DNA from: Marinilabiliales bacterium
Lineage (GTDB): Bacteria; Bacteroidota; Bacteroidia; Bacteroidales; PUMT01
Direction: 5' to 3'
Assembly (NCBI GenBank): GCA_007695015.1
Contig: REEN01000067.1
Span: forward strand, 1-64,000
DNA length: 64,000 bases
Positions within the stretch are counted from its first letter, which is position 1. Every line of letters begins with the position of its first letter. A model generated the notes under the pieces. That model did no database searches. It was not told where the DNA came from and saw only the letters and a program-made list of their open reading frames with translations. Below, one piece after another: positions 13,446 to 33,483 of this stretch. Position numbers and translations under genes: made by a program.

Positions 13446-14540
13446 ATGACCGGAATTGAAAAATTACTGGAAAAGGATAATTACAACCTCCAGGAGCTTG
13501 CAGCTCTTCTCAAAACAGAAGGTGAAGAGCGCAGGCTCCTTTATGCCAGGGCGGCTGAGGTGAAAGCAGAACATGTAGGGAAAAAGGTATATTACAGGGG
13601 ACTCGTTGAGTTTTCCAATATATGCGGCAAGAACTGCCACTACTGCGGAATTCGCAGGGATAACAGGAACCTGAAAAGGTACAACCTGGGTGACGCTGAT
13701 ATCCTCGATGCAGTGAAGTTTGCATACGATAACAGGTATGCATCGGTGGTGCTGCAATCGGGCGAAATTGAAAGTCCCGGCTTCACCGACCGGATTGAAA
13801 AGCTGCTCAGGGAAATAAAGAGAATAAGCAATAACGAACTCGGAATAACCATTTCACTCGGAGAGCAAACGGAAGATGTGTACCGGCGCTGGTTCAGTGC
13901 CGGTGCACACCGTTACCTGCTCAGGATAGAAACATCCAATAAAGAGCTTTACAGGAAAATCCATCCTGATGACGGCAGGCACGATTATGACAGGCGCATT
14001 GAATGCCTGAGATCGCTCAAGGAGATAGGGTACCAGACCGGAACGGGGATCATGGTCGGACTGCCTTTTCAGACCATCGAAGATATAGCAGCCGACATCA
14101 TCTTCATGAAGGACTTTGATATAGATATGGTTGGGCTCGGACCATACATAGAGCACCGGGACACCCCTCTCTTCAGTTACCGGAAGAGCCTTCTGCCTCC
14201 CGAAGAGCGTTTCCACCTGGCAATGAAGGTTATTGCGCTGCTGCGGATCATGATGAAAGATATCAACATAGCCGCAGCTACCGCAATGCAGGCTATAGAT
14301 CCGATGGGGAGGGAGAAGGCCCTGATGGTTGGCGCCAATGTGATAATGCCCAATATAACACCCGGCAAATACAGGGATAGCTATAAACTTTACGAAAACA
14401 AGCCATGTACCGACGAGGAGGCTGAAGATTGCACCAAATGCCTTGAAGCAAGGATACATATGGCGGGCGACGAGATCGGTTACGGCGAGTGGGGCGACTC
14501 AAAACACTATGCCCGCAGGCGGGGCGGGCAGACCGGATAA
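13446..14540 (+). CDS. hydE: [FeFe] hydrogenase H-cluster maturase HydE (radical SAM)
   Basis: 364 aa. The radical-SAM cluster motif CX3CX2C is at C60, C64 and C67 (CGKNCHYC), followed by the GIR segment seen in HydE. Further marks are GTGIMVGLPFQT and a C-terminal CTKCLEARIHMAGDE region. HydE acts with HydG and HydF to build the diiron subcluster of [FeFe] hydrogenase. HydG is 3.5 kb away on the other strand and the hydrogenase operon is about 12 kb away, so the maturation genes are dispersed but local. HydF is not in the window. The length is normal and the start is a clear ATG after GAGAG. Confidence 0.93.
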   Translation: MTGIEKLLEKDNYNLQELAALLKTEGEERRLLYARAAEVKAEHVGKKVYYRGLVEFSNICGKNCHYCGIRRDNRNLKRYNLGDADILDAVKFAYDNRYASVVLQSGEIESPGFTDRIEKLLREIKRISNNELGITISLGEQTEDVYRRWFSAGAHRYLLRIETSNKELYRKIHPDDGRHDYDRRIECLRSLKEIGYQTGTGIMVGLPFQTIEDIAADIIFMKDFDIDMVGLGPYIEHRDTPLFSYRKSLLPPEERFHLAMKVIALLRIMMKDINIAAATAMQAIDPMGREKALMVGANVIMPNITPGKYRDSYKLYENKPCTDEEAEDCTKCLEARIHMAGDEIGYGEWGDSKHYARRRGGQTG

Positions 14541-18044: not shown

Positions 18045-19472
18045 TCAAAAATAGAGGTCGCGCTTACCCTCCCTTATCAACGCAAGCCTTTCCCTTATCT
18101 GGCCGGTGAGCTTTTCGCCGTCCAGCTGCCTGATGTTATCCTCGATCACCTTCCACCCCTTTTCGGCGGTAGCGGGCGGAGCATAATCCTCAAGGTATTC
18201 AGCCAAAGTGAGTATGGCGTTGGGCGAACAGAACCTTTTGATGAAGCCGGGCACCGAAAACTCCATAAAATGCTCACCTGTCCTCCCCTTCCTGTAGCAT
18301 GCCGTGCAAAATGAGGGGAGATAACCATCTTCCAGAAGTTCATCTATTATCTCGTTTAGCGACCTGGAATCATTAATCTTGAACTGCTCCTTGTTCAGGT
18401 CCTGCTCCTCATTAATGCTTTCCGAATAACTTCCCATTTCGAGTTTGGTGCCGCCATCGATCTGTGAAACGCCGAACTTCATAACCTCCCTCCTGACCAT
18501 CGCGTTTTCCCTTGCAGTCAGTATCATCCCGGTATACGGCACCGCAAGCCTGAGTATGGCGACGAGCCTGATGAACTCCTCATGGCTTACCATGTATTTT
18601 GGATCAACATTTACCGATGAGGCATCCTGAATCCTGGGGAAAGAAATAGTATGCGGCCCTACCCTGTAACATGCCTCAAAGTGGTTTGTATGCCGTACCA
18701 GTCCCAGTACCTCAAACCTCCAGTCGTACAACCCGAACAGTGCGCCAATGCCAACATCGTCTATGCCTGCCTCCTGCGCCCTGTCGAGTGCAGTGAGACG
18801 GTAATCGTAGTCCATCTTTTTCCCACCAAGATGGTATTTCTGATAAGTTTCCTTATGATATGTCTCCTGGAAGATCTGGTAGGTGCCAATGCCTGCATCC
18901 TTCACAATACGGAACCCGTCAATATCGAGGGGTGCGGCATTTATATTCACCCTCCTGATCTCGCCGTTGCCCTTTTTAACCGAATAAACCGTTCGTACAG
19001 TATGGGCAATATATTCGGCATTATAAGCAGGATGCTCGCCGTAAACCAGGATAAGCCGCTTCTGCCCGTTGTCCTCGAGTGCCTCGACCTCTTTTACCAG
19101 CTGGCTGTCGGATAGTGTCTGCCTGACGGCAAATTTGTTGGAGGTCCTGAATCCACAATAGGTGCAGTTGTTGGTACACTTGTTACCCACGTACAGCGGT
19201 GCAAACAACACGATACGGTTGCCGTACACCCTCTTTTTGAGCTCCCTGGCGCCCTCCTTTATCTCTTCTATCAGTTCGGGAGAATCAGCGTTTATAAGCA
19301 CCGCGGTCTCTTCAAGGGTGAGCCGCTGTTTACCGAGAGATTTAGCAATTACTTCTCTAACCCTTTCGGGGGATGACCGGGTATTGTTTATCAGGTTCCA
19401 AATCTCATCGGGGTCGATGAAAGGTTCCATCCGCCGGTCCTTTATGCTGCATTTTTCAGGATAAAACTTCAT
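18045..19472 (-). CDS. hydG: [FeFe] hydrogenase H-cluster maturase HydG (radical SAM tyrosine lyase)
   Basis: 475 aa, full length. The radical-SAM motif is C99, C103 and C106 (CTNNCTYCGF). The C-terminal auxiliary-cluster motif CTACYRKGRTG...RFC, which binds the dangler-iron cluster in HydG, is intact. HydG cleaves tyrosine to make the CO and CN ligands of the H-cluster. The gene is followed on the same strand by two TM1266-type genes. It is preceded by a 221-bp spacer after ung, so it probably has its own promoter. Confidence 0.95.
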   Translation of the reverse strand: MKFYPEKCSIKDRRMEPFIDPDEIWNLINNTRSSPERVREVIAKSLGKQRLTLEETAVLINADSPELIEEIKEGARELKKRVYGNRIVLFAPLYVGNKCTNNCTYCGFRTSNKFAVRQTLSDSQLVKEVEALEDNGQKRLILVYGEHPAYNAEYIAHTVRTVYSVKKGNGEIRRVNINAAPLDIDGFRIVKDAGIGTYQIFQETYHKETYQKYHLGGKKMDYDYRLTALDRAQEAGIDDVGIGALFGLYDWRFEVLGLVRHTNHFEACYRVGPHTISFPRIQDASSVNVDPKYMVSHEEFIRLVAILRLAVPYTGMILTARENAMVRREVMKFGVSQIDGGTKLEMGSYSESINEEQDLNKEQFKINDSRSLNEIIDELLEDGYLPSFCTACYRKGRTGEHFMEFSVPGFIKRFCSPNAILTLAEYLEDYAPPATAEKGWKVIEDNIRQLDGEKLTGQIRERLALIREGKRDLYF

Positions 19473-21477: not shown

Positions 21478-22107
21478 TTACGAAACCAGGCTGTTCTTTT
21501 TAGTAAAATATGCGACTTTTTCAAGCGAGGTTATCATATCGTAATCCTCCAGGTATACATGCGGAGAGATATTCACCGGAACCGAGGTGAAATTCAGTAT
21601 CCCCCTGATCCCGGCAATAACAAGCTCTTCCGCCACAGAAGCGGCATGATCAGGGGGTACTGTAAGGACCGCTATGGTAATGTTGAGCTCCCTGATCCTG
21701 TCAGCAAGCTCCTTTACAGGATAACAGTTCACACCTGAAATAACCCTGTTCACCTTGGCCGGATCATTGTCAAATGTTGCAACAATATTCAGTTTTGAAC
21801 GCTTGCCCATGAAATACCCTGTAATTGCCCTGCCAAGGTTTCCGACACCGACAACGGCAACATTCTGCCCCTTGCGGGTATCCAGGATGGACCCGATCAC
21901 CTTTATCAGCTCATTTATATCATAACCCTTTTTCTGGCTGGTTGAATATCCCATCAGCATGATGTCCCTTCTGACCTGTACAGCCGTCAGGTTAAGCATG
22001 TCGGCAAGTTCGTGGGAATAAATATGGGTCTTGCCTGTTGCGAGGCAGTTAAGGAGAATTCTCCTGTACTGGCTTAGTCTTTCGATCGTTTTACCCGGTA
22101 GTTTCAT
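21478..22107 (-). CDS. rex: Redox-sensing transcriptional repressor Rex
   Basis: 209 aa. The N-terminal winged helix spans residues 1-75 (RLSQYRRILL, ELADMLNLTAVQVRRDIMLMG). The Rossmann domain opens with VGVGNLG at residues 86-92 and contains the FDNDPAKV segment. Rex binds DNA when NADH is low and releases it as the NADH/NAD+ ratio rises. The first 17 bases overlap the 3' end of the receiver-kinase gene, implying translational coupling within the hydrogenase operon. A near-consensus Rex operator lies in the promoter region of that operon (29941-29958), so the repressor probably controls its own operon. Confidence 0.95.
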   Translation of the reverse strand: MKLPGKTIERLSQYRRILLNCLATGKTHIYSHELADMLNLTAVQVRRDIMLMGYSTSQKKGYDINELIKVIGSILDTRKGQNVAVVGVGNLGRAITGYFMGKRSKLNIVATFDNDPAKVNRVISGVNCYPVKELADRIRELNITIAVLTVPPDHAASVAEELVIAGIRGILNFTSVPVNISPHVYLEDYDMITSLEKVAYFTKKNSLVS

Positions 22108-23257
22108 CTTTTTCCTGAATATTATTGTTGGCAGGGGTTTTAAGCGGAAATATTACCGTAAAAGTACTCCCTTCGCCCGGCTTGCTACTGACTTTTATTT
22201 CACCCTTATAGAGCCTGATCAGTTTTTTTACTATTGACAAGCCAAGTCCGCTTCCTGCAATTTGCCTTGTCTTTTCATTCCTGATTCTTACAAATTCCTG
22301 GAAAAGCCTGGGTATTTCCTCCTCGGTTATACCAATGCCGGTATCAGAAACTGTTATCAATATGCTTTGGTCCTGCTGCTCGATCTTGCAGTCAACAGTT
22401 CCGCCCTCTATGTTATACTTGATAGCATTGGATAATAGATTATTGAATATAATTTCCATCTCCTCCCTGTCAGCTTCCATGAACACCTCACCGGGAGCAT
22501 CTAGGTCTATTTTTACATCTTTTTGTATGGATATGGGACCCATGGTATCGATCGATAACCTGGCCACCTCTGTCATGTTGACGGGAACCACCTCCCTCTT
22601 CTTCTTGCCCGATTCTATCCGGGTAAGATCAAGAAGATCCATTATAAGGCTCCTCATGCCCTTGACGCGGACCAGAGAGCGTTCTATGATCTTGTTGTAG
22701 GCATCGAGGTCATTCCCGGCCTGCCTGTCCTCCATAATTCGCAGGTATCCCTCAATGGCATTAAGAGGTGCCTTCAGCTCATGCGACAGCACCGACAGGA
22801 ACTGGAACCTGATCTGCCTGCCCTCCTTATTGAGTTTCCGGGTCATCCGTTTAAGAAAAATATGCTTTGTAACACTCTCAATTGCAGACTTAAGCTCCTG
22901 TGGGGTAAAGGGCTTCGGTATAAAATCATGTGCGCCCTGGTTGGTAGCCTTCACCGCCAGCTCAAGCGATGCATAAGAGGTGATCATCAGCACAATCGTA
23001 TCGAGGTTTTTCTTGTTTATGTGCTCCAGCACCTCAATACCCTGTATTCCAGGGAGTTTATTGTCAAGCAGTATTATATCGGGTACCTTCTTTTCAATTA
23101 TACCGATAGCCTCCTCCCCGGTATGAGTCTCCAATACCTCAAAAGCAATATCCTCATCCATAAAAGGAAAGCCTACAGAATACCTTGACAATATCCTGGT
23201 TATGCCCGAGCAGATACCCGGTTCATCATCCACAACAAGAACCTGCAGTTTTTCCAT
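22091..23257 (-). CDS. Receiver-histidine kinase hybrid (receiver at N-terminus)
   Basis: 388 aa. The receiver domain covers about residues 1-125, with acidic pocket D10/D11, phospho-acceptor D65 (ILLDNKLPG) and the conserved Lys in FIPKPF. A linker leads to a HisKA domain with H159 in FLSVLSHELKAPLN, then HATPase motifs N (NNLLSNAIKYN), G1 (DTGIG) and G2 (SGLGLSIV). There are no membrane segments, so it is cytosolic. It starts 1 bp after the upstream single-receiver gene and overlaps rex. It would take phosphate or be tuned by upstream signalling and pass it on; the output partner is unknown. Confidence 0.92.
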   Translation of the reverse strand: MEKLQVLVVDDEPGICSGITRILSRYSVGFPFMDEDIAFEVLETHTGEEAIGIIEKKVPDIILLDNKLPGIQGIEVLEHINKKNLDTIVLMITSYASLELAVKATNQGAHDFIPKPFTPQELKSAIESVTKHIFLKRMTRKLNKEGRQIRFQFLSVLSHELKAPLNAIEGYLRIMEDRQAGNDLDAYNKIIERSLVRVKGMRSLIMDLLDLTRIESGKKKREVVPVNMTEVARLSIDTMGPISIQKDVKIDLDAPGEVFMEADREEMEIIFNNLLSNAIKYNIEGGTVDCKIEQQDQSILITVSDTGIGITEEEIPRLFQEFVRIRNEKTRQIAGSGLGLSIVKKLIRLYKGEIKVSSKPGEGSTFTVIFPLKTPANNNIQEKDETTG

Positions 23258-23258
23258 T

Positions 23259-23654
23259 CTACATCTTTAGCAGTTTGAGTATTTCCCTGTGAAGCTGATC
23301 AGCCCTGACCCCCTTCTCAATATAGAGGTCTGCCCTGATCCATTTTCTTTCATCTTCCGAACTCACCCCGAACGACATTCCTGTTTCGGCCGAAACTGCC
23401 GTTGCTATAATGACAGGAACATCCGGATATCTTCTCTTCAGCTTGTATGCCAGGATGAACCCGCTGTCATCCTTCTCCATCATCAGGTCAAGCACAGCCA
23501 GGTCAGGCTTGAGTGTTTCCAGAAGTTTCTCGGCCTCGGCCTGACTTTCGGCCGTCACGACCCTGAACCCGAACTGTTCGATATTGAGCCTGGTCTGAAA
23601 GAGATAATCCTCATCATCGTCAACCAGCAGGATCGTCTTTTTATTCTTGTCCAT
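23259..23654 (-). CDS. Single-domain response regulator
   Basis: 131 aa, a CheY-like receiver and nothing else. The acidic pocket is VDDDED (residues 11-16) and the phospho-acceptor is D56 in AVLDLMME. No DNA-binding or enzymatic output domain is present, so it probably relays phosphate. It lies 19 bp after the H-cluster-like histidine kinase and abuts the receiver-kinase gene, making it the likely cognate receiver of the former. Confidence 0.9.
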   Translation of the reverse strand: MDKNKKTILLVDDDEDYLFQTRLNIEQFGFRVVTAESQAEAEKLLETLKPDLAVLDLMMEKDDSGFILAYKLKRRYPDVPVIIATAVSAETGMSFGVSSEDERKWIRADLYIEKGVRADQLHREILKLLKM

Positions 23655-23673
23655 AATACCATTTATTAAAATA

Positions 23674-25665
23674 TCAAATATTGTTTGCCGGCAATGTTAC
23701 AGTGAATTTGGTTCCGGTATCGCCATTTGCAGGGTCGGCATTGGATATAACATTGATCTGGCCCATGTGCATTTTTACTATCCCGTAAGTCGTTGCAAGT
23801 CCGAGTCCCGTCCCCTTCCCTATCCCCTTTGTTGTATAGAAGGGCTCGAATATCTTTTCCATGTCCTCTTCACGGATGCCTGTACCGGTGTCGCTGATGT
23901 GAAACTCCACTTTATCATTCTCACTGACAATATCAATCCGCAGCACTCCTCCTTCCGGCATTGCCTCAACCGAATTCTTCAGCAGGTTAGTCAATGCCTG
24001 GATCATCTGTTCTGCATCCAGTTGAGCGCTGTGATGGCCAGAAGGATCAACATTCAGCTCAACCCTGATGTTATCGGGAATTATAAGGGCATCGAGAGAC
24101 TGCCTTACTATACTCTCAGGTTTTACCTCAGTTGGCCTTACCTGGTTCTTGCGTGCAAAGTTAAGCAGTCCCCCCACTATCTTCTTGCACCTGTTTGCCT
24201 GCTCGACTATAAGCCTGAGGTCTGAGTATTCGGGCGAATTCTTCGGCACCTCCTCAAGGAGAATATTGCTGTACATTATTACCACCCCCAGCGGGTTATT
24301 CAGCTCATGTGCAATACCTGCCGAAAGCTGGCCCATGCTTGCCATTTTCTCAGACTGTTTGAGAGCCTGCTGCACCGACACCAGCTTTTCGTTGGTCACT
24401 GCAAGATCATTTATCGAATTATGAAGCTTATCTATTGTCATAGGCAGGCACATCTCAATCTCAGCCAGTCCCTCGATAATGGCGATTGCATGATCCTCGC
24501 AGGTTTCATAGCCGCATGCACCGCAATTTAGGAAATCACGTGCATCAAACTTACCCATCTTCTCCAGCTCACTCCTGATCTCCTTTACCGAAGGAGTTGG
24601 CAGTCGCTGATCATCTGGGTTAAACCCGGAAGTAAGATCTACTGAGCCGTAATCGGCCATATTTTTCTTCCATTCCTCCGGATCGGAACGCTTTATCTTG
24701 TCACGCACGTAACTGCTCACCAGGGACCTTCTTGCATAGTGCTTACCACCTTCAGACATGCCCGGTCCCATTATGCATCCTTCACAGCAGAGCAGCTCAA
24801 GATGATGATTGCTGATAAGTCCGGCTTCAAACTCCTTAATTGCCTCCTGGAAGTCTGCTCTTCCCTCAGCGACTATTATATTTCCGTCGAAAGCGCTGTC
24901 TTTGATATCAACCGTCTGAAGCAGTCCCCTGCTGATAGGGAAGACAGCGCCCTTACCTGCTTCGGGAGGATCAAAACATGAGGGTTCTGTAACAGACGCC
25001 TCTATATTCTTCTCTTTGAACATTTCCCTCAGTTCGGCAAATGTAAGCACTGTATCAACATCCTGTGATTCATCTTTTTTCGCCACACACGGGCCGGTAA
25101 ACACTATGCTGACGTCATTGCCAAGTTTTTTCCTGACAACCCGGCTCATCGCAACCATTGGCGAAACCACGCTTGCAAGGTTTGGCACCAGGTCAGGGTG
25201 GTACTTTCTGATATAATTGACTATAGCAGGGCAGTCAGATGATATATACCTCTTTTCACCTTTTCCCTCAAGAAGCTTTTTATACTCATTGGCCACCAGG
25301 TCGGCCCCGAACCCAACTTCAAAAACATGGTCAAACCCCAGTCTTCTCATCATACCCACAAAGATCCGGTAATCGCCGGTTTCGGTAAACTCAGCCGGAA
25401 AACTCGGGGCAACCAGGGCAGCAACCCTGACCGGGGATTCCAGCAGGTCATTCACCCTGTCGGCCGAACGTCTGTAAACCTTGGCACCCTGGCTGCATAC
25501 GCGGGTACAGTTACCGCAACCTATGCAACGTTCAATAAGCACCTCTGCCTGTCCGTTTATGATCTTTATGGCTTTTGCCGGACACTCCCTGACACAGGTA
25601 TAACAGACACGGCAACGGTCCTTCAGCGTAATGAGCAGCTTTTTATGTTCTTCTTTTTCTTCCAT
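23674..25665 (-). CDS. H-cluster-like sensor histidine kinase ([FeFe] hydrogenase-like domain fused to kinase)
   Basis: 663 aa, cytosolic. Order: two [4Fe-4S] motifs (C18/C21/C24/C28; CIGCGNCTRVC at 47-57); an [FeFe]-hydrogenase-like domain (about 75-330); a CGxCGYxxC Fe-S domain (381-406); a coiled-coil linker; HisKA with H453 in AGIAHELNNPLG; and HATPase (NLLKNSVEAM, DTGTGI, GTGLGL). The hydrogenase-like domain keeps Cys at all four expected H-cluster ligand positions (C145, C193, C293, C297). The proton-relay Cys next to C145 is Asp (SSDCP), and the canonical Met before PC is Gly (GPCVAKK). This fits a hydrogenase-derived sensor rather than an enzyme, akin to sensory (HydS-type) groups, where PAS or kinase outputs are known. 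It follows hydA by 17 bp. The ATG at 25665 was preferred over the TTG at 25671. Signal identity (H2, CO or redox) is inference. Confidence 0.88.
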   Translation of the reverse strand: MEEKEEHKKLLITLKDRCRVCYTCVRECPAKAIKIINGQAEVLIERCIGCGNCTRVCSQGAKVYRRSADRVNDLLESPVRVAALVAPSFPAEFTETGDYRIFVGMMRRLGFDHVFEVGFGADLVANEYKKLLEGKGEKRYISSDCPAIVNYIRKYHPDLVPNLASVVSPMVAMSRVVRKKLGNDVSIVFTGPCVAKKDESQDVDTVLTFAELREMFKEKNIEASVTEPSCFDPPEAGKGAVFPISRGLLQTVDIKDSAFDGNIIVAEGRADFQEAIKEFEAGLISNHHLELLCCEGCIMGPGMSEGGKHYARRSLVSSYVRDKIKRSDPEEWKKNMADYGSVDLTSGFNPDDQRLPTPSVKEIRSELEKMGKFDARDFLNCGACGYETCEDHAIAIIEGLAEIEMCLPMTIDKLHNSINDLAVTNEKLVSVQQALKQSEKMASMGQLSAGIAHELNNPLGVVIMYSNILLEEVPKNSPEYSDLRLIVEQANRCKKIVGGLLNFARKNQVRPTEVKPESIVRQSLDALIIPDNIRVELNVDPSGHHSAQLDAEQMIQALTNLLKNSVEAMPEGGVLRIDIVSENDKVEFHISDTGTGIREEDMEKIFEPFYTTKGIGKGTGLGLATTYGIVKMHMGQINVISNADPANGDTGTKFTVTLPANNI

Positions 25666-25682
25666 CGTCAATGATGATTATC

Positions 25683-27407
25683 TCAGAGAAGCACCTTCCG
25701 TTCCGAATATTTCGTGTAAAAAAGTGATTTGCATCTGTCGCTACCCGGTTCGCCAAGGTAGTCGTTATAGAGGGACCTGACAGCCGGGTTTTTATATGGG
25801 ACCCTTATGGTCTCCTTTTCGTCTATACTGTAAAGGGCCTTCATCCTGGCTCTTATGGCAGCATCACCGGCGCCAATCGGCTGTCCTCCGCCATTGATAC
25901 AACCACCTGCACATGCCATTATCTCTACAAAATCGTACCCGGAGTCCCCTGAACGTATCCCCTCAACCAGGGGCAGGGCATTTGATAGCCCGCTTACCAC
26001 GGCGAACCTGTATACACTCTTGCCGATCTTAATTCTGGCCTCTTTTCTTCCTTTAATGCCGCGTAACTCCTGGAACTTCAGCCCGGCAAGTTCCTTTGAT
26101 CCGTTAATATGAGGAAGAGAGCGGATGACCGCCTCACTCATCCCGCCTGCAGCACCGAAAAGTTTTCCGGCTGAACTGGGCATTCCGTAAGGCTCATCGG
26201 CCACCTCAGCTTCAACCTGGTCAATGTCTACTCCGTAAAGCCTGATTAGCTTTGCAAGCTCACGTGTTGTTAATACACAATCAATGTCTGATATTCCCTT
26301 CCTCGTCATCTCCGCCCGCTGTGTCTCAAATTTCCTGGCAGTGCAGGAGGTAATAGCAACTGAGAATATTTTACCGGGGTCGATATCCTTCTTTTCAGGA
26401 TAATGGGTCTTGATTATGGTGCCCAAAATCTGCTGGGGGGACTTGCACGATGACATGTGATCAAGAAGGTCAGGATACCACTGTTCTGCAAATTTAACCC
26501 ATGCCGGGCAGCTGCCCGTAACTACCGGAACATTTTCACTTCTTTTTTTTCTCTCCGTTAACTCCGCTGCCATCTCAAGCGCGGCAATATCGGAAGCACC
26601 GGAGGTGTCGAATATCCCGTCAAAACCTATCTTCCTGAGAACTGCATTGATAATGCCTCCCATATCCTTTCCCGGCCTTATCCCGAATTCTTCGGCCAGA
26701 GAAACACTTACCGAAGATTCATACTGGGCAACAACTGTTTTTTCAGGGTTATGCAATGCATCCTCGAGCTCCTGTAACCCGTCCTTTTCATAAAGAGCCC
26801 CGGTCGGGCAGACCATTATACATTGACCGCAATTAATACAACTTGAGAAATTCAGATCCTTGTCATAAGCAGTACCTATAACGGTCCTGTTTCCCCTGTT
26901 TACAAAATCTATAGCAAATACAGCCATTTTATCCTCACAAACCCTGACACACCTTCCGCAAAGAATGCATTTGGCTGGGTCACGGACTATCGAGGGGCTC
27001 GAATGATCAAGTTTATACCTGTTCTTCTTACCCATAATGCGTCGCTCCCTGACGTTCAACTCCTCAGCGAGAGTCTGCAGCTCGCAGTTTCCGTTACGTT
27101 CACAGTAAAGACAGTCGTCGGGATGGTTGGAAAGAAGCAGTTCCACTATGGTTTTCCTGGACCTGACCACCCTTGGGGAGTGTGTTTTTATCTTCATCCA
27201 CTCGTTGACAGGCTGCGAACACGAAGGAACAAGTCCACCATGCCCTTCAACCTCTACTACACACATCCTGCATGCTCCCGTTGGGGTAAAATCCTTCATT
27301 GAGCATATCGACGGTATCTTTATTCCGGCCGATTGCAGTGCCGACATAATCGTTTCACCCTTCCGTGCCCTGACAATCTTGTTGTTGACCTCTATTTTGA
27401 CTATCAT
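25683..27407 (-). CDS. hydA: [FeFe] hydrogenase catalytic subunit HydA with variant active-site motifs
   Basis: 574 aa. N-terminal [2Fe-2S] ferredoxin domain (C35, C46, C49, C63), His-Cys [4Fe-4S] motif (H95, C99, C102, C108), two [4Fe-4S] motifs (from C147 and C190), then the H-cluster domain. The four H-cluster ligands are C300, C355, C499 and C503. The L1 motif reads TGSCPAW rather than TSCCPGW, so the proton-relay Cys is Ser299. L2 reads TSCTARKFE rather than MPCTAKKFE. L3 (ACAGGCINGGGQ) is canonical. With HydB and HydC it would form an NAD(P)H-linked, possibly electron-bifurcating, cytosolic hydrogenase that evolves H2. It lies 27 bp after hydB. Confidence 0.93.
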   Translation of the reverse strand: MIVKIEVNNKIVRARKGETIMSALQSAGIKIPSICSMKDFTPTGACRMCVVEVEGHGGLVPSCSQPVNEWMKIKTHSPRVVRSRKTIVELLLSNHPDDCLYCERNGNCELQTLAEELNVRERRIMGKKNRYKLDHSSPSIVRDPAKCILCGRCVRVCEDKMAVFAIDFVNRGNRTVIGTAYDKDLNFSSCINCGQCIMVCPTGALYEKDGLQELEDALHNPEKTVVAQYESSVSVSLAEEFGIRPGKDMGGIINAVLRKIGFDGIFDTSGASDIAALEMAAELTERKKRSENVPVVTGSCPAWVKFAEQWYPDLLDHMSSCKSPQQILGTIIKTHYPEKKDIDPGKIFSVAITSCTARKFETQRAEMTRKGISDIDCVLTTRELAKLIRLYGVDIDQVEAEVADEPYGMPSSAGKLFGAAGGMSEAVIRSLPHINGSKELAGLKFQELRGIKGRKEARIKIGKSVYRFAVVSGLSNALPLVEGIRSGDSGYDFVEIMACAGGCINGGGQPIGAGDAAIRARMKALYSIDEKETIRVPYKNPAVRSLYNDYLGEPGSDRCKSLFYTKYSERKVLL

Positions 27408-27434: not shown

Positions 27435-29387
27435 CTATTTCACATAAATGGCGCTGAATTTGCAAACGTCATAACAGATACCGCATCCTGTACATTTTTC
27501 TTCAACTATGAAGAAAGGATGGTGCCGGGTGCCTATAATGGCTGACTCCGGGCATTTAGGCGCACATACGGTACAGCCGGTACACTTGTTCACATCTATC
27601 TGAAATAGCCTGAGCTCCTTACATACACCGGCACTACACTCCCGGTCGAATATATGCTCCTCATAATCACTCCTGAAATGCCTCAGGGAACTTGTAACTG
27701 TATTGGGTGCCTTCTGCCCCAGTCCGCAAAGCGAAGTATCACTGATCACACCGGCAAGGCTCTCAAGCTGCATTACGCCTTTGAAACGCTCAAGTGTAGT
27801 GTGGCCGTTTGCATCAACAGGCCGCCTGGTGATATTCTCATAAACCTCCAGCATTCGACTGGTTCCTTCCCTGCAGGGAATACATTTGCCACAGCTCTCT
27901 TTCTGTATGAAATCCATGAAATACTTTACCGTATCGATAATACAGCAGCTTTCATCCAGCACAACCATTCCGCCCGATCCCATATATACACCTTCACTGG
28001 CCAGAGAGGAGAAGTCATAGGGAGTATCAATGTTTTCTGACGTAAGAAAACCGCCTGAAGGACCGCCAATCTGGACAGCCTTGAAAGTCTTGTTATCCGG
28101 AATGCCCTCACCTGTCCCATAAATAATATCCTTTACAGGCGTTCCCAGCGGAACTTCAATAATCCCCTGGTTGACAATTATGCCCGAAAGCACCAGAATC
28201 TTTGTTCCCCTTGCAGATTCATTCCCTATCGACATGAACCAGTCCGGTCCGTTCTCAAAAATTGCAGGTATATTTGAAAGTGTCTCAACATTGTTCACAA
28301 CAGTTGGCTTGCCAAAAAGGCCAGAGACCGCAGGATAGGGCGGCTTGGGTCTGGGCATTCCCCTCTTGCCTTCAAGGCTGCTTATCATGGCGGTCTCCTC
28401 TCCGCAGACAAAGGCACCCGGTCCTTTCCTCACAGTGATCTCAATATTGAATCCGCTGCCATAAACGTTATGCCCAATCAACCCGAATTCACGTGCCTGA
28501 CTGATAGCATGCTCCAGCCTTTCGATAGCTATCCTGTAGTCATTGCGGATATATATCAAAGCCCTGGAGGTACCAATGGCATAGGCAGCTATCAAAACTC
28601 CTTCCAATAGCCGGTGCGGATCACTCTCGATCATAGCCCTGTTGGCATATCCACCCGGATCACTCTCATCGGCGTTGCATAACAGGTATCGCTGATCGGC
28701 AAAAACTGAATGGGCAACCTTCCACTTCTTCCCCGTAAGGAAACCTCCCCCGCCCCTGCCCTGAAGTCCGCTCTTTTCAACAATATCACACACCTCTTCA
28801 TGTGTATAGCTGCGCACTGTCTTGACGTATGACCTGTAACCGCCTGTTGCAATGTACTCTTCGATGGAGAGTGGACTGATACGGCCCCAGTTCCGGAGCA
28901 GGTTCCTTTTCTGAAGCGAAAAAAAGGGCAATTCATCTATAAAAGGAACATCCTTCCATATTTCAAGTGCCCTATCACGGTGCTGGCCAAGCACATGCTC
29001 CTCAGGAATTATGCTGTTGAATATCCCGTCAAGCACGGAAGAGAGCTTGCCCGCAGTTACGTTTCTGAATGCCACCCTTGTCTTTCCGGGCATCTGCACT
29101 TCAACTACCGGTTCCATTGATGAATACCCGGCCGAACCTGTCTCGACAACATCAGCCCTGATATTGCGCTCATCCAGATATTTTCTTATCTCGTCAAGTG
29201 TATCCCCTGCTCCCGATATCACTCCGCTGCTGGCTGTTCCGACAAATACAGCCGGATGGCGCACCTTTGCCCTGCGAAGCAGCCTCATCATCTTCTCAAC
29301 ATCAGCGGGCAGGTCGACCGATTCATTCATCAGTACATTATCAACAAGGTATTCTTTCTTTATGGGAATATGGGTTCTGTTTTCCAT
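27435..29387 (-). CDS. hydB: NAD(P)H-dependent hydrogenase diaphorase subunit HydB (NuoF-like)
   Basis: 650 aa. The NuoF-like core has the FMN/NADH motif GRGGGGFLTGKKW and the GAFVCGEETA segment. A [4Fe-4S] site follows (SCGKCIPCREG, with SLCGLGQ). The C-terminus has two [4Fe-4S] motifs (CTGCTVCAPKC, CTGCGICYDVC). It oxidises NAD(P)H and passes electrons to HydA, possibly with bifurcation to ferredoxin. The N-terminal thioredoxin-like domain is present in shape, but all four [2Fe-2S] cysteines are gone: the aligned positions are G50, G55, S85 and S89, and there is no Cys before about residue 175. The ATG at 29387 follows the hydC stop closely; a TTG two codons earlier is possible. Confidence 0.93.
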   Translation of the reverse strand: MENRTHIPIKKEYLVDNVLMNESVDLPADVEKMMRLLRRAKVRHPAVFVGTASSGVISGAGDTLDEIRKYLDERNIRADVVETGSAGYSSMEPVVEVQMPGKTRVAFRNVTAGKLSSVLDGIFNSIIPEEHVLGQHRDRALEIWKDVPFIDELPFFSLQKRNLLRNWGRISPLSIEEYIATGGYRSYVKTVRSYTHEEVCDIVEKSGLQGRGGGGFLTGKKWKVAHSVFADQRYLLCNADESDPGGYANRAMIESDPHRLLEGVLIAAYAIGTSRALIYIRNDYRIAIERLEHAISQAREFGLIGHNVYGSGFNIEITVRKGPGAFVCGEETAMISSLEGKRGMPRPKPPYPAVSGLFGKPTVVNNVETLSNIPAIFENGPDWFMSIGNESARGTKILVLSGIIVNQGIIEVPLGTPVKDIIYGTGEGIPDNKTFKAVQIGGPSGGFLTSENIDTPYDFSSLASEGVYMGSGGMVVLDESCCIIDTVKYFMDFIQKESCGKCIPCREGTSRMLEVYENITRRPVDANGHTTLERFKGVMQLESLAGVISDTSLCGLGQKAPNTVTSSLRHFRSDYEEHIFDRECSAGVCKELRLFQIDVNKCTGCTVCAPKCPESAIIGTRHHPFFIVEEKCTGCGICYDVCKFSAIYVK

Positions 29388-29389
29388 GT

Positions 29390-29857
29390 TCAATCCTCCC
29401 TTTCTTCTATGCAGGAATCGATAATATCACCTACTTCATCAGGCTTAACACGGGTATGATAATTACCGTTTATCCTTATCACCGGTGAAAGATGGCAGGC
29501 TCCCATGCATGCTGTTAGCTCAAGGCTGAATTTACCGTCCCTGGTGGTTTCTCCCGGACTTATACGGAGCTTCTTCTCAAGCTTCTTGCGAACTTCTTCG
29601 GCACCGGTCACATGACAGGATGTCCCGTGACAGAAGCATATGTGATACTGGCCCAAGGGCTTAAACCTGAACTGGTTGTAGAACGTGGCAAGTCCGTAAA
29701 TCTTTCCCGAGGGCAGGTCCAGGTATCGCCCTACCTCTACGACCGCCTGCTCTGAAAGGTAACCGTACGCTTCCTGGATATCCTGGAGCATCGGGATCAG
29801 GCTTTCACGGCTCCCTTTCGGATATTTTTCCAGAATTTCATTATTCTTCTCATCCAT
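29390..29857 (-). CDS. hydC: Hydrogenase subunit HydC, NuoE-like [2Fe-2S] protein
   Basis: 155 aa. An N-terminal helical bundle (IPMLQDIQEAYGYLS, LPSGKIYGLATFY) precedes a thioredoxin-like [2Fe-2S] domain with the ligand pattern CX4C...CX3C at C76, C81, C117 and C121. This is the NuoE-type electron-transfer subunit of HydABC. It is the first gene of the leftward hydrogenase operon and borders the regulatory region at 29.9 kb. The ATG at 29857 was chosen over the TTG one codon upstream. Confidence 0.95.
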   Translation of the reverse strand: MDEKNNEILEKYPKGSRESLIPMLQDIQEAYGYLSEQAVVEVGRYLDLPSGKIYGLATFYNQFRFKPLGQYHICFCHGTSCHVTGAEEVRKKLEKKLRISPGETTRDGKFSLELTACMGACHLSPVIRINGNYHTRVKPDEVGDIIDSCIEERED

Positions 29858-29892
29858 CAAAATATACTTTACTCAAGTTCCTGATAAAAACC

Positions 29893-29923: not shown

Positions 29924-29937
29924 TTGTTACAAAACAA
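29924..29937. promoter_or_regulatory. Minor Rex-like dyad
   Basis: TTGTT and AACAA flank four bases (ACAA), a shortened dyad that touches the main Rex operator at its right edge. It shares the ATTGTTACA element with that operator (direct repeat at 29923 and 29940). Support is weak on its own. Confidence 0.35.
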
Positions 29938-29963
29938 ACATTGTTACATAATTAACAATGTTT
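29936..29963. promoter_or_regulatory. Near-consensus Rex operator between hydC and the ferredoxin gene
   Basis: Two 11-bp arms (AAACATTGTTA and TAACAATGTTT) are perfect complements around six bases. The 18-bp core TTGTTACATAATTAACAA (29941-29958) matches the Rex consensus TTGTTAAnnnnTTAACAA at 13 of the 14 fixed positions. rex lies in the leftward operon that starts here. The site is positioned to control both divergent operons, coupling hydrogenase and sensor expression to NADH/NAD+. Confidence 0.8.
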
Positions 29964-29992
29964 GTCAGCATGTTTTTGTGTGAAAAAATTGT

Positions 29993-30103: not shown

Positions 30104-30355
30104 ATGGATAACAACAAAACAGAGATAGTGATCTGCCTCGGCAGTTCATGCTTTTCAAGGGGCAACAGGAAAAGCCTGCCGCTGATAGATAAGTTTCTCA
30201 AAGAGAATAACCTGGAAGACAAGTACTTTTTTCGCGGGAGCCGTTGCTTCAATATTTGCGAAAAAGGACCGGTGCTTAAAATTGGCGACACACTATATGA
30301 AGGAGTCAACCCGGAAGATGTAGAAGGAATACTGAAAAGATCCCTCAGGAGGTAA
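30104..30355 (+). CDS. Stand-alone thioredoxin-like [2Fe-2S] ferredoxin
   Basis: 83 aa, a single thioredoxin-like ferredoxin domain with the ligand pattern CX4C...CX3C at C11, C16, C48 and C52, and the EKGPVLKIGD signature after the last Cys. It is the same fold as the N-terminal domain of HydB and the C-terminal half of HydC. It opens the rightward operon, divergent from hydC, and is followed 82 bp later by an H-cluster-like sensor. It could pass electrons to that sensor, or replace the cluster missing from the HydB N-terminal domain. Both are inferences from context. Confidence 0.9.
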   Translation: MDNNKTEIVICLGSSCFSRGNRKSLPLIDKFLKENNLEDKYFFRGSRCFNICEKGPVLKIGDTLYEGVNPEDVEGILKRSLRR

Positions 30356-30437: not shown

Positions 30438-32309
30438 ATGGCCCTGATAAATATTGACAACGAAAAATGCAACCTCTCCTACTCCTGTGTCAGGATCTGC
30501 CCCGTCAATGCCATCAAGGTAGAGGCTCACCAGGATTATCCCGAGGTTATGCACAATGCCTGCATTGGTTGCGGGCACTGCCTGAAGGTTTGCTCACCGG
30601 GTGCCATAAGTTACAGGGATTCGAAAGAAGACGCAAAGACGCTCCTTGGATCGGACGACAAGGTGGCTGCAATATGCGGGCCAAGTATCTCGGGAGAATT
30701 TCATGATATTACCGACTACCGGAAATTTGTCGACATGATCAGGGCCCTTGGCTTTGAATATGTATTTGAAGCCTCCTTCGGGGTTGACCTTGTTGCCCGC
30801 AAATACAATGAGCTTTTCAACAGCTTTAAGGGTAAATATTACATTACCGCCAACTGTCCGGCAGTAGTTTCATACATTGAAAAGTTCCATCCCGATCTTA
30901 CAGACAACCTTGCACCTTTGGTATCGCCCATGATAGCCACCGCAAAAGTGGCCCGCAAGAAATATGGCAACAAGCTCAGGGTGGTTTACATAGGCCCCTG
31001 TATTGAGACAAAGAAAGAGGGCAAAAGATACCGTGATGACGGACGTATAGATGCTGTGCTGACCTTTGCCGAGTTAAGGGAGCTGTTTACTGAGTATGAC
31101 ATTAGCGAGAAAAAAGTGGAATTCTCCGATTTTGATCCGCCCATAGGATACAAGGGCTCCCTATACCCCATAAGCACGGGAATACTCGAAGCAGCTGACA
31201 TTGACCAGAGCCTGCTTGACGGTAATGTGATAACCGCGGAGGGACGGAACGGCATGCTTGAGGCTGTTAACCAGTTTGAAAAGCAAATTGACAACATAAA
31301 AAAGCATTTCAATCTGTTCTATAACGAAGGGTGTATAATGGGACCGGGGACTTCAAGGGGAGGTGAAAAGTTCAGGCGCCATGCCCTGGTGGTTGACTAC
31401 GCAAAAAGGAGGCTGAAAAATTTCGACGTAAAAAAATGGGAAAAGGATATGGAGGAGTTCGGTAAGCTCGACCTGTCGCGAAAATTCAAAAAAGATGACC
31501 AGAGGCTGCCCTTTCCTGACGAAGACAAGATACAAGAGATACTCCAGGTCATCGGAAAAGAGAACAATGTCGATGAGATCGGCTGTGCATCATGCGGCTA
31601 CACATCCTGCAGGGATTTTGCGGTGGCTGTGGCACGGGGACTGGCAAAAACGGAAATGTGCCTGACATTTACCCTGAAGAACAGGCACGACTATATCAGA
31701 ACCCTGAGGGAAACAAACCAGAAACTGGCTGAAACCCAGGAGGCCCTCAGAAAGTCTGAAAAGAATGCCCGGCGTGAGCAGCAACTGGCAAGGGAGTCCT
31801 TTGAGACCACCCATACAATGCTTGAAAAGCTCCCCTCAAGCGTGGTTCTTGTAGACAATGAGCTGAAGGTGATTCAGGCAAACAAAAGCTTCATCAATAT
31901 GCTCGATGAGGAGGCCAGGATGATAGAGGATGTGATTCCCGGACTTGAGGGAGCCGATCTTAAAACATTGCTCCCCTATAACTTCTATAATCTCTTCTCT
32001 TACGTGCTTAACCAGGATGACAATATTGTTAACCGCGACGTTCTCTTTAATGATATCCTTTATAACATATCGATATTTACCATAAGGAAAAATAAGATAG
32101 TGGGTGCGGTGATAAGAGACCTTTACGTGCCTGAGGTACGGAAAGAGGAGGTGATCAAAAGGGTTACCGATGTGATCGATAAGAACCTTGAACTGGTGCA
32201 GAAGATCGGGTTCCTTCTCGGGGAAGGCGCATCTGAAACTGAAGCTATGCTCAACAGCATAATCGAGTCGTACAAAATGCCCGAAAAACCGGAAGAAGAT
32301 GGAGAATAG
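30438..32309 (+). CDS. H-cluster-like sensor protein with PAS-like C-terminus (HydS-type)
   Basis: 623 aa, cytosolic. Order: two ferredoxin-type cluster motifs; a [FeFe]-hydrogenase-like domain (about 70-330); a CASCGYTSC Fe-S domain (around 385); a coiled coil; and a PAS-like region (about 450-560). It is a paralogue of the leftward sensor kinase but has no kinase. Ligands are eroded: the first ferredoxin motif has Ser14 where a Cys is expected (C11, S14, C17, C21), the relay position is Asn139 (TANCP), and the third H-cluster ligand is Tyr295 (YNEGC), leaving C140, C188 and C299. A catalytic H-cluster is therefore unlikely. Its stop overlaps the start of a SpoIIE-type phosphatase, so the two are translationally coupled and probably work as a sensor-effector pair. 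Confidence 0.88.
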   Translation: MALINIDNEKCNLSYSCVRICPVNAIKVEAHQDYPEVMHNACIGCGHCLKVCSPGAISYRDSKEDAKTLLGSDDKVAAICGPSISGEFHDITDYRKFVDMIRALGFEYVFEASFGVDLVARKYNELFNSFKGKYYITANCPAVVSYIEKFHPDLTDNLAPLVSPMIATAKVARKKYGNKLRVVYIGPCIETKKEGKRYRDDGRIDAVLTFAELRELFTEYDISEKKVEFSDFDPPIGYKGSLYPISTGILEAADIDQSLLDGNVITAEGRNGMLEAVNQFEKQIDNIKKHFNLFYNEGCIMGPGTSRGGEKFRRHALVVDYAKRRLKNFDVKKWEKDMEEFGKLDLSRKFKKDDQRLPFPDEDKIQEILQVIGKENNVDEIGCASCGYTSCRDFAVAVARGLAKTEMCLTFTLKNRHDYIRTLRETNQKLAETQEALRKSEKNARREQQLARESFETTHTMLEKLPSSVVLVDNELKVIQANKSFINMLDEEARMIEDVIPGLEGADLKTLLPYNFYNLFSYVLNQDDNIVNRDVLFNDILYNISIFTIRKNKIVGAVIRDLYVPEVRKEEVIKRVTDVIDKNLELVQKIGFLLGEGASETEAMLNSIIESYKMPEKPEEDGE

Positions 32310-33483
32310 CTTCTATGTTGAAGTTGGATACCAGCAGAAGAATCACGGCAAGGAGAGAATCTGCGGAGATGTTTTCCTCTCACAAAGGGTAAAGGAAGAG
32401 AACAGGATTGTAGCAGTTTTGTCTGACGGCATGGGGCATGGTGTAAAGGCAAACATACTGGCAACGCTTACCGCATCGATGGCCCTTAACTTCACCCGTG
32501 AACACAAGGATGTAACCCGTATTGCCGAGATAATCATGAACACCCTGCCGGTATGCAGTCAGCGAAAAATAAGTTATTCAACCTTCACGGCAGTTGACAT
32601 TGAGATGAATGCCCAAACCAGTATCCTTGAATATGACAACCCAGGCAGTTTCATAATGAGGGAAAGCAAACCTCTTGATTCTGAATGGAAATGCCTGATC
32701 CTAAGCTCAGAAAAAAACAAGGGAAAAGAGATCAAGAGCTGCCATTTTAATCCCCGTAAGGAAGACCGGATCATAATATGCTCAGATGGCATCACGCAGT
32801 CGGGTATGGGCTCAAAAAAGTATCCCTTCGGCTGGGGCCGGGAAAACGTGCAGCAGTTCATTACAGGAATTATTGAACAGCAGCCCGACATTTCGGCCCA
32901 GAAACTGGCATCCCGCATAATCAACACAGCATACAAGAACGACAACTATAATGCCCAGGACGACACCTCCTGTGCCGTGATATACTTCCGTGAACCCAGG
33001 AAGCTCCTGCTCTGCAGCGGCCCCCCCTTTGAAAACGAAAACGACACAAAACTTGCAGACATAGTAAAGGAGTATCCCGGCAAAAAGATCCTGTCGGGAG
33101 GAACTACCGGCGATATAGTGGCAAGGGAACTCGGACTGGAGATAAAAGACACCTTTGAATTTACCGATCCTGACCTGCCCCCCGTCTCACATATGGATGG
33201 CATAGACCTTGTAACCGAAGGGATCCTGACGCTCAGCAAGGTATCCAAGATCCTTAACGAGCACAATCAGAGCTGGGTTCCCGGTAAGGGCCCGGCCGAC
33301 CAGATTGCAAGCCTGCTGCTTGAAAGCGACGAAATAAGGATAATCATAGGTACCCGCATCAACATAGCCCACCAGGATCCCAACCTTCCCGTAGAACTGG
33401 AGATCAGGCGCACCGTTCTCAAGCGTGTTGCGCGCAAGCTCGAGGAGAAGTTCCTGAAAGAGGTAACCGTCGAATATATATAA
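32299..33483 (+). CDS. SpoIIE-type PP2C serine/threonine phosphatase with C-terminal extension
   Basis: 394 aa. The PP2C/SpoIIE domain fills residues 1-230, with metal-binding acidic residues D24 (ICGD), D43 (LSDGMGHG), D163 (CSDGI) and D221/D222 (QDDTS). A further 165-residue C-terminal region (LSGGTTGDIVAREL, GPADQIASLLLESDEI) is not recognised as a known domain. The start overlaps the end of the H-cluster-like sensor by 11 bp. Pairing of a hydrogenase-like sensor with a PP2C phosphatase is known from gene neighbourhoods of sensory-type [FeFe] hydrogenases. The phosphoprotein target is unknown; a SiaC-like protein 9 kb away is a candidate. Confidence 0.9.
   Translation: MENSFYVEVGYQQKNHGKERICGDVFLSQRVKEENRIVAVLSDGMGHGVKANILATLTASMALNFTREHKDVTRIAEIIMNTLPVCSQRKISYSTFTAVDIEMNAQTSILEYDNPGSFIMRESKPLDSEWKCLILSSEKNKGKEIKSCHFNPRKEDRIIICSDGITQSGMGSKKYPFGWGRENVQQFITGIIEQQPDISAQKLASRIINTAYKNDNYNAQDDTSCAVIYFREPRKLLLCSGPPFENENDTKLADIVKEYPGKKILSGGTTGDIVARELGLEIKDTFEFTDPDLPPVSHMDGIDLVTEGILTLSKVSKILNEHNQSWVPGKGPADQIASLLLESDEIRIIIGTRINIAHQDPNLPVELEIRRTVLKRVARKLEEKFLKEVTVEYI

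Follow-up and report, generated by a model that had tools for sequence, protein, structure and literature searches.

Described sensory hydrogenases

In Ruminococcus albus, sensory [FeFe]-hydrogenases have been connected with H2-dependent regulation (PMC6776011), and in T. saccharolyticum with the control of hydrogenase genes (PMC8924675). H2 sensing by the group C enzymes is still termed putative (PMC8924675), and no group C or D enzyme directly shown to signal upon H2 was found in the literature covered. The protein analysed here, HydS-HK, is a sensor histidine kinase with an [FeFe]-hydrogenase domain, encoded in a 64,000-nucleotide stretch of Marinilabiliales DNA (the window). Kinase-fused sensory (group C) [FeFe]-hydrogenases of this type have been published before and form a widespread family, of which HydS-HK is a member. 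One such protein is BfuT, from the sub-type V BfuABC clusters of Hydrogenedentota. In the part of PMC11406978 that describes it, BfuT likewise unites a hydrogenase-type sensor and a histidine kinase in one protein and likewise lies beside a trimeric bifurcating-type hydrogenase; HydDB places it in group C3, with the histidine kinase fused (also HydDB entry WP_006928132.1). That part of the paper gives the domain only, with no Asp, loop-3 deletion, linker or receivers, and the comparison is one of descriptions.

HydDB also defines a group C1, ‘histidine kinase-linked (putative)’ (PMC5037454), which shares with HydS-HK the kinase link and the putative H2-sensing role. In the cases from Vallitalea (PMC6163223) and Cloacimonadota (PMC8542988) the kinase is a separate adjoining gene, whereas HydS-HK is one polypeptide; judged by domains and not by the classifier, its kinase link is the fused HisKA/HATPase pair. 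Placement in HydDB group C3 (phosphatase-linked) through the SpoIIE gene of the locus was rejected, as SpoIIE pairs with a second, PAS-type sensor.

TmHydS from Thermotoga maritima (group C, M2f; PMC10055695) shares with HydS-HK the 2x[4Fe-4S] domain, the H-domain and the C-terminal Fe–S domain, and both proteins have Gly at the position of CpI M353 and a residue other than Cys at that of C299. TmHydS has Ala131, Ser267 and a PAS domain but no kinase, whereas HydS-HK has Asp, Leu, a kinase and no PAS domain: Pfam detects none after the C-terminal Fe–S domain, where group C (M2f) proteins carry it, and none between that domain and HisKA. TamHydS from Thermoanaerobacter mathranii (group D, M2e) has the same Fe–S plan including the Cx2Cx4Cx16C motif (PMC8163306, PMC10407848, PMC13104023); like HydS-HK, it lacks a PAS domain and adjoins a trimeric hydrogenase. 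It differs in having no fused kinase, and in its Ser at M353, Ala137 at C299 and E252/E289 proton path, where HydS-HK has Gly, Asp and Leu248. Group D was rejected for HydS-HK since it needs Ser or Thr at M353 and Glu at E252, and Gly191 and Leu248 were found; E252 was taken as the equivalent of CpI V423, as deduced from the Val that group A has at this position (PMC10407848).

Relative to the open-access literature, the new elements are a loop 3 that departs from group A, a clade-fixed Asp and an invariant linker with two length classes; a one-residue-shorter loop 3, a fixed Asp or a register-locked linker was not found described there, which is weak evidence. We consider it fairly probable that HydS-HK is a cytoplasmic sensor histidine kinase with a repurposed group C-like [FeFe]-hydrogenase as its input, controlling or tuning the adjoining trimeric hydrogenase.

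Gene and domain organisation

The hydS-HK gene (23674..25665, minus strand) encodes 663 residues from an ATG at 25665. The reading frame is open throughout 23674-25671 (minus strand), and a TTG at 25671, two codons upstream of the ATG, would give 665 residues. The TTG is the less likely start; the ATG matches the coordinates and numbering of an earlier, sequence-only reading of this DNA. No clear Shine-Dalgarno sequence was seen before either start. Residues are numbered here with the ATG as 1, and numbering from the TTG adds 2.

Pfam matches comprise PF02906 (E 3e-49), HisKA (1e-12), HATPase_c (1e-23), two 4Fe-4S motifs and PF04060. Together with the open frame, they bear out the earlier proposal of a hydrogenase-like domain joined straight to a histidine kinase. 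By Pfam and alignment, the N-terminal 2x[4Fe-4S] ferredoxin-like domain (25471..25629, minus strand) carries Cys 18, 21, 24, 28, 47, 50, 53 and 57, all invariant. The sequence-only reading had recognised this set and overlooked a third Fe–S domain, PF04060 (24442..24531, minus strand), whose C381, C384, C389 and C406 are in exact Cx2Cx4Cx16C spacing, the signature of putative sensory [FeFe]-hydrogenases of groups C and D (PMC8163306). A Foldseek search with the AlphaFold model of HydS-HK returned [FeFe]-hydrogenases from rank 1 on, including CpI C299D (6GLZ).

The homologue set comprises 52 full-length or long kinase-fused sensors, that of the window included, and residue counts were made over 45. 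Because 52 kinase-fused homologues could be collected, the fusion is not due to chance. The closest relatives, at 85% identity, come from Bacteroidales MAGs with CSSed isolate names, which we take to be soda-lake sediment genomes.

The H-cluster site

The H-cluster domain (PF02906; 24763..25428, minus strand) provides Cys145, Cys193, Cys294 and Cys297 as ligands, all four invariant in the 45 kinase-fused homologues. C145, C193 and C297 had been named earlier together with C293, which is ruled out since position 293 varies across the family (C/G/S in 34/3/8 of the 45); the third ligand is the invariant C294. For the same reason loop 3, beginning HLELLCCEGCIMGPG (24757..24804, minus strand), is read as a CxxC motif, C-E-G-C, one residue shorter than the CxxxC of group A. 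HMMER alignments with CpI and with the T. kivui HydA1 structure 8a6t both have a one-residue gap in this loop, and every catalytic enzyme aligned has a loop 3 one residue longer than that of HydS-HK. A characterised precedent for the shortened loop was not found in the open-access literature. The shortening might alter or prevent diiron binding, which counts against the interpretation favoured here.

The pocket was compared with that of CpI. Equivalents of P231, P324, C355, K358 and E361 are kept in 45/45 homologues and that of S232 in 44/45; in HydS-HK, Pro87 corresponds to P231, Ser88 to S232, Lys196 to K358 and Glu199 to E361. The M353 position is Gly (Gly191 in HydS-HK) and the M497 position Leu in all 45, Gly being also the commonest residue at M353 in sensory enzymes, at about 51% (PMC10055695). 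The sequences SSDCP and GPCVAKK are both present as reported before, but to call them replaced catalytic motifs was an overstatement: Cys193, Lys196 and Glu199 are unchanged in all 45 homologues, and the one substitution is Gly for Met353.

An H-cluster is probably loaded in HydS-HK. We regard as rather unlikely the alternative that the Cys4 site lacks the diiron subcluster and holds just a [4Fe-4S] cluster, so that the kinase would read ferredoxin or redox state and not H2. The loop that is shorter than in every aligned catalytic enzyme would suit such a site, as would the PAS-type paralogue at the same locus, which has Asn for one ligand Cys and suggests that a degraded H-site is tolerated in the lineage, and some Hydrogenedentota group C1 proteins that lack recognisable H-cluster motifs (PMC11406978). 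A plain [4Fe-4S] cluster, however, would not need the constellation that is invariant or nearly so in the 45 homologues, namely the four Cys with the P231, S232, P324 and K358 equivalents, and the maturases HydE, HydF and HydG are present.

The proton-relay position

Asp144 (codon GAC, 25234..25236, minus strand) aligns with CpI C299, confirming that Asp stands in place of the proton-relay Cys. Asp occupies this position in 38/38 Bacteroidales-labelled orthologues (window included) and in 0/14 orthologues of other lineages, where Ala, Thr, Ser, Pro or Asn is found instead. In genomes of the same phylum, remoter kinase-fused sensors carry Ala, Pro or Ser there. One gain suffices on the tree. 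In published sensory sequences the position is Ala in about 43%, Cys in 17%, Pro in 10% and Ser in 10% (PMC10055695), so that Asp is a minority state among sensory enzymes.

Engineered enzymes show what this residue can do. Among 19 substitutions of the relay Cys in CaHydA, only Asp keeps high activity (kcat 242 versus 456 s-1; PMC3485046). CpI C299D and HydA1 C169D retain 30-80% of H2 release, and the carboxylate of CpI C299D is hydrogen-bonded to the bridging amine (PMC6226526). In Cys-to-Asp relay variants H2 oxidation is strongly reduced, with a bias toward evolution (PMC9563086). The earlier view that the Asp itself bars normal turnover is therefore not supported, Asp being the one highly active substitution in CaHydA (PMC3485046) and an active one in CpI and HydA1 (PMC6226526), and since these variants stay active, Asp144 argues for a kept proton-exchange group and against a dead site. 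CaHydA C298D and CpI C299D (PDB 6GLZ) resemble HydS-HK in their relay Asp, but they are engineered and the rest of their proton path is intact, whereas the Asp of HydS-HK is natural and the path is gone (PMC3485046, PMC6226526).

The group A path C299-E279-S319-E282-R286 is not found in HydS-HK, where V124, A164, E127 and L131 stand at E279, S319, E282 and R286. Over the 45 homologues, the E279 equivalent is Val in 43, that of S319 Ala in 36 and that of R286 Leu or Ile in 42; the E282 position is variable across the family. With the E279, S319 and R286 equivalents gone, slow turnover of HydS-HK is plausible to likely. A co-variation search identified Ser143, Lys180, Glu267, Gln273, Glu280, His288, Tyr310 and Lys323 as tracking the Asp clade. 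An alternative proton path formed from them was dropped, because Asp-free PAS paralogues often have His288 and Glu267 too.

HydS-HK may also be a slow but active hydrogenase in which Asp144 acts as relay and the state of the kinase follows from turnover, with H2 oxidised into the F-clusters; it would then sense turnover rather than occupancy. We hold this reading, which is a sub-case of the favoured interpretation and overlaps with it, to be possible but doubtful. It can draw on the unique activity of Asp in CaHydA (PMC3485046), on the hydrogen bond in C299D CpI (PMC6226526) and on the single origin and fixation of Asp in the Bacteroidales-labelled sensors, as well as on the PAS paralogues, most of which have at the C299 position Asn, a residue inactive in CaHydA. 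It is weakened by the substitutions at E279, S319, R286 and TamHydS E252 (Leu248), which leave no complete path visible, and by the other kinase-fused members, which manage with Ala, Pro, Thr, Ser or Asn.

Connecting helix and kinase module

The signalling helix (24331..24441, minus strand) carries invariant L414, L421, L428, L435 and A442 at heptad spacing. The distance from Cys406, the last Fe–S Cys, to His453 is exactly 47 residues in 45/45 kinase-fused homologues, and in 16 distant kinase-fused sensors the last Fe–S Cys is exactly 40 residues from the phospho-His, so that one length class is precisely one heptad shorter than the other. Such lengths and heptad Leu residues are what a fixed-register coiled-coil signalling helix would give. 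AlphaFold pLDDT falls below 50 at residues 426-459 of the linker (TTG as 1), which counts against the favoured interpretation.

The kinase module is complete, as claimed before, with H, N, G1, F and G2 boxes all present. HisKA (24145..24336, minus strand) contains the phospho-acceptor His453 (HELNNP), and the boxes of HATPase_c (23683..24018, minus strand) are invariant or nearly so: H453, N560/N564, D592-G594-G596 and G616-G622 do not vary, and F606 and F609 are kept in at least 90%. That the fusion is accidental or decaying, with no signalling role, has practically no credibility for us: no evidence favouring it was found, and across phyla, at about 50% identity, the fusion, the linker length, the phospho-His and the kinase boxes do not vary.

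Family tree and other fusions

The tree was built with the loop-3 columns excluded and does not contain TmHydS or TamHydS. The CxxC sequences (kinase-fused sensors, PAS paralogues and sigma54-fused sensors) form one clade, with bootstrap 94, SH-aLRT 87 and presence in 92% of bootstrap trees. The shortened loop 3 common to kinase-fused and sigma54-fused sensors probably has a single origin, for which the support is good, not decisive. The tree places the window's PAS sensor within the kinase-fused clade (100/94), as a duplicate that arose there and lost the kinase. In its loop 3, Asn replaces the Cys equivalent to C294, and since six near relatives share this Asn, it is not a sequencing error.

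In Clostridia (L127-L133, L144), the same input module is fused to a PAS domain, a sigma54 activator and an HTH domain (sigma54 domain E 4e-67 and 8e-69, Pfam on L127 and L130), apparently forming a sensor and transcription activator in one protein. These fusions argue that the hydrogenase-type module drives signalling outputs. Our search, which did not extend to subscription papers, found no relevant literature on sigma54-fused [FeFe]-hydrogenases.

A broader proposal, which we put forward only tentatively and with low confidence, is that the CxxC sensors form a separate and possibly undescribed branch of [FeFe]-hydrogenase relatives with a differently ligated H-site cofactor. One module would have been joined to histidine kinases, to sigma54 activators and, after duplication, to the PAS/SpoIIE line, and in Bacteroidales the Asp would have been recruited so that H2 turnover drives the kinase through the heptad-registered helix.

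Genomic context

On one side of hydS-HK lie the minus-strand genes of the trimeric hydrogenase: HydA, a group A6-like catalytic subunit with TGSCPAW and TSCTARK motifs (25683..27407), the NuoF-like HydB (27435..29393) and the NuoE-like HydC (29390..29860). On the other side, also on the minus strand, are a stand-alone receiver (REC; 23259..23654), likely the first phosphate acceptor, a REC-HisKA-HATPase hybrid (22091..23257), likely the second relay component, and the redox (NADH/NAD+) repressor Rex (21478..22107); the receiver and the hybrid were identified by Pfam and as conserved next genes. The order HydC(NuoE)-HydB(NuoF)-HydA-sensor-REC-REC/HK recurs in dozens of loci, nearly every locus long enough, from Bacteroidota, KSB1, Fidelibacterota (Neomarinimicrobiota), Calditrichota, Acidobacteriota, Fermentibacterota and others as well as in a record labelled Deltaproteobacteria, at least six phyla in total. 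Most of these loci have a Rex gene nearby. The two receivers have no partner gene with an obvious DNA-binding output, which counts against the favoured interpretation.

A divergent plus-strand operon opens with a short thioredoxin-like [2Fe-2S] protein (30104..30355), followed by the PAS-type second sensor, a paralogue of HydS-HK (30438..32309; loop 3 FYNEGC), and a SpoIIE-type phosphatase (32299..33483). In Bacteroidales this operon carries the short [2Fe-2S] protein, the PAS-type sensor and then SpoIIE where the contig extends that far. The window also encodes the maturases HydG (18045..19472, minus strand) and HydE (13446..14540, plus strand), and HydF is on another contig (C64), so that all three are in the genome.

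The H-cluster is known to bind CO and to react with O2. Together with the altered pocket, this chemistry would allow a sensor of CO or of O2/NO to which H2 is incidental. We judge such a role very unlikely, as an H2-metabolising trimeric hydrogenase adjoins in nearly every locus and the sensory enzymes characterised so far tolerate CO comparatively well (PMC8163306).

A candidate Rex box, TTGTTACATAATTAACAA (29941..29958; no strand assigned), lies in the divergent promoter region with 1 mismatch to TTGTTAANNNNTTAACAA, within a perfect 13-bp inverted repeat (29934-29965) between the two operons. At the same place, 25/30 Bacteroidales loci have the motif with at most 2 mismatches, and 30/30 have it when 3 are allowed; shuffled sequence of the 30 loci gives 3.7-5.1 mismatches on average. 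Because 0.32 matches are expected by chance in the whole window, the support comes from conservation and not from the single site. In T. saccharolyticum the same motif is listed for the upstream regions of hfsABCD and hydG (PMC5886521).

Proposed signalling mechanism

HydS-HK is likely the sensor histidine kinase of the hydrogenase operon. That it regulates the trimeric hydrogenase is argued from its domains and invariant residues, the gene order, the maturases, the linker and the Clostridia fusions. H2 is a plausible ligand, and the ‘gas sensor’ role is putative. The cofactor-holding sensor of the sequence-only reading thus finds backing in the invariant ligands and pocket, HydE/F/G, the kinase boxes and the receivers downstream; what is not supported is the block of turnover by Asp.

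First, HydE, HydF and HydG would load the H-cluster on Cys145, Cys193, Cys294 and Cys297. Then H2, or the ferredoxin/H2 redox balance, would alter the H-cluster and the two N-terminal clusters, Asp144 serving in the Asp clade as the proton-exchange group at the bridging amine. A conformational change may next pass through the C-terminal Cys4 Fe–S domain and, with no PAS domain, along the heptad-registered coiled coil to the DHp helix with His453; the constraint on length and register is observed in this step, and the motion is presumed. The C-terminal cluster of TamHydS is not reduced by H2 (PMC13104023), so that by analogy a redox wire through this cluster is unlikely in HydS-HK, and a conformational route fits better. 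From phospho-His453, the phosphate would be transferred to the stand-alone receiver and the REC-kinase hybrid, whose genes follow in a conserved order. Finally, Rex binding at the site in the shared promoter would supply a separate NADH-responsive input.

HydS-HK offers a soluble H-domain and an intact kinase in one chain with no PAS domain between them, which makes autophosphorylation a direct readout for the question whether such enzymes sense H2. For the study of proton transfer it also provides a naturally occurring equivalent of the engineered Cys-to-Asp variants, and with its reworked metal-binding loop, relay Asp and length-locked helix it is well suited for testing how bacteria might sense H2.

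Further observations

The HydA of the window (25683-27407) also lacks the relay Cys, having Ser (TGSCPAW), and has TSCTARK for MPCxxKK. In relatives (L007, L010, L030, L032, L033, L036, L052, L053) the relay position is Asp (SSDCPAW), His, Ala or Cys. All catalytic [FeFe]-hydrogenases are stated to have Cys there (PMC9563086), with which a HydA without it is at odds. The HydA of L040, L045, L047-L051, L054 and L057 has a loop 1 reading TSCSPGW, with Ser in the C300 ligand column and the relay Cys kept. Contig C65 of genome G000 (L001, L002, L006) encodes three further PF02906 proteins, one of them very divergent (463 residues), and the window itself opens with a 2704-residue open reading frame at 49-8163 (plus strand).
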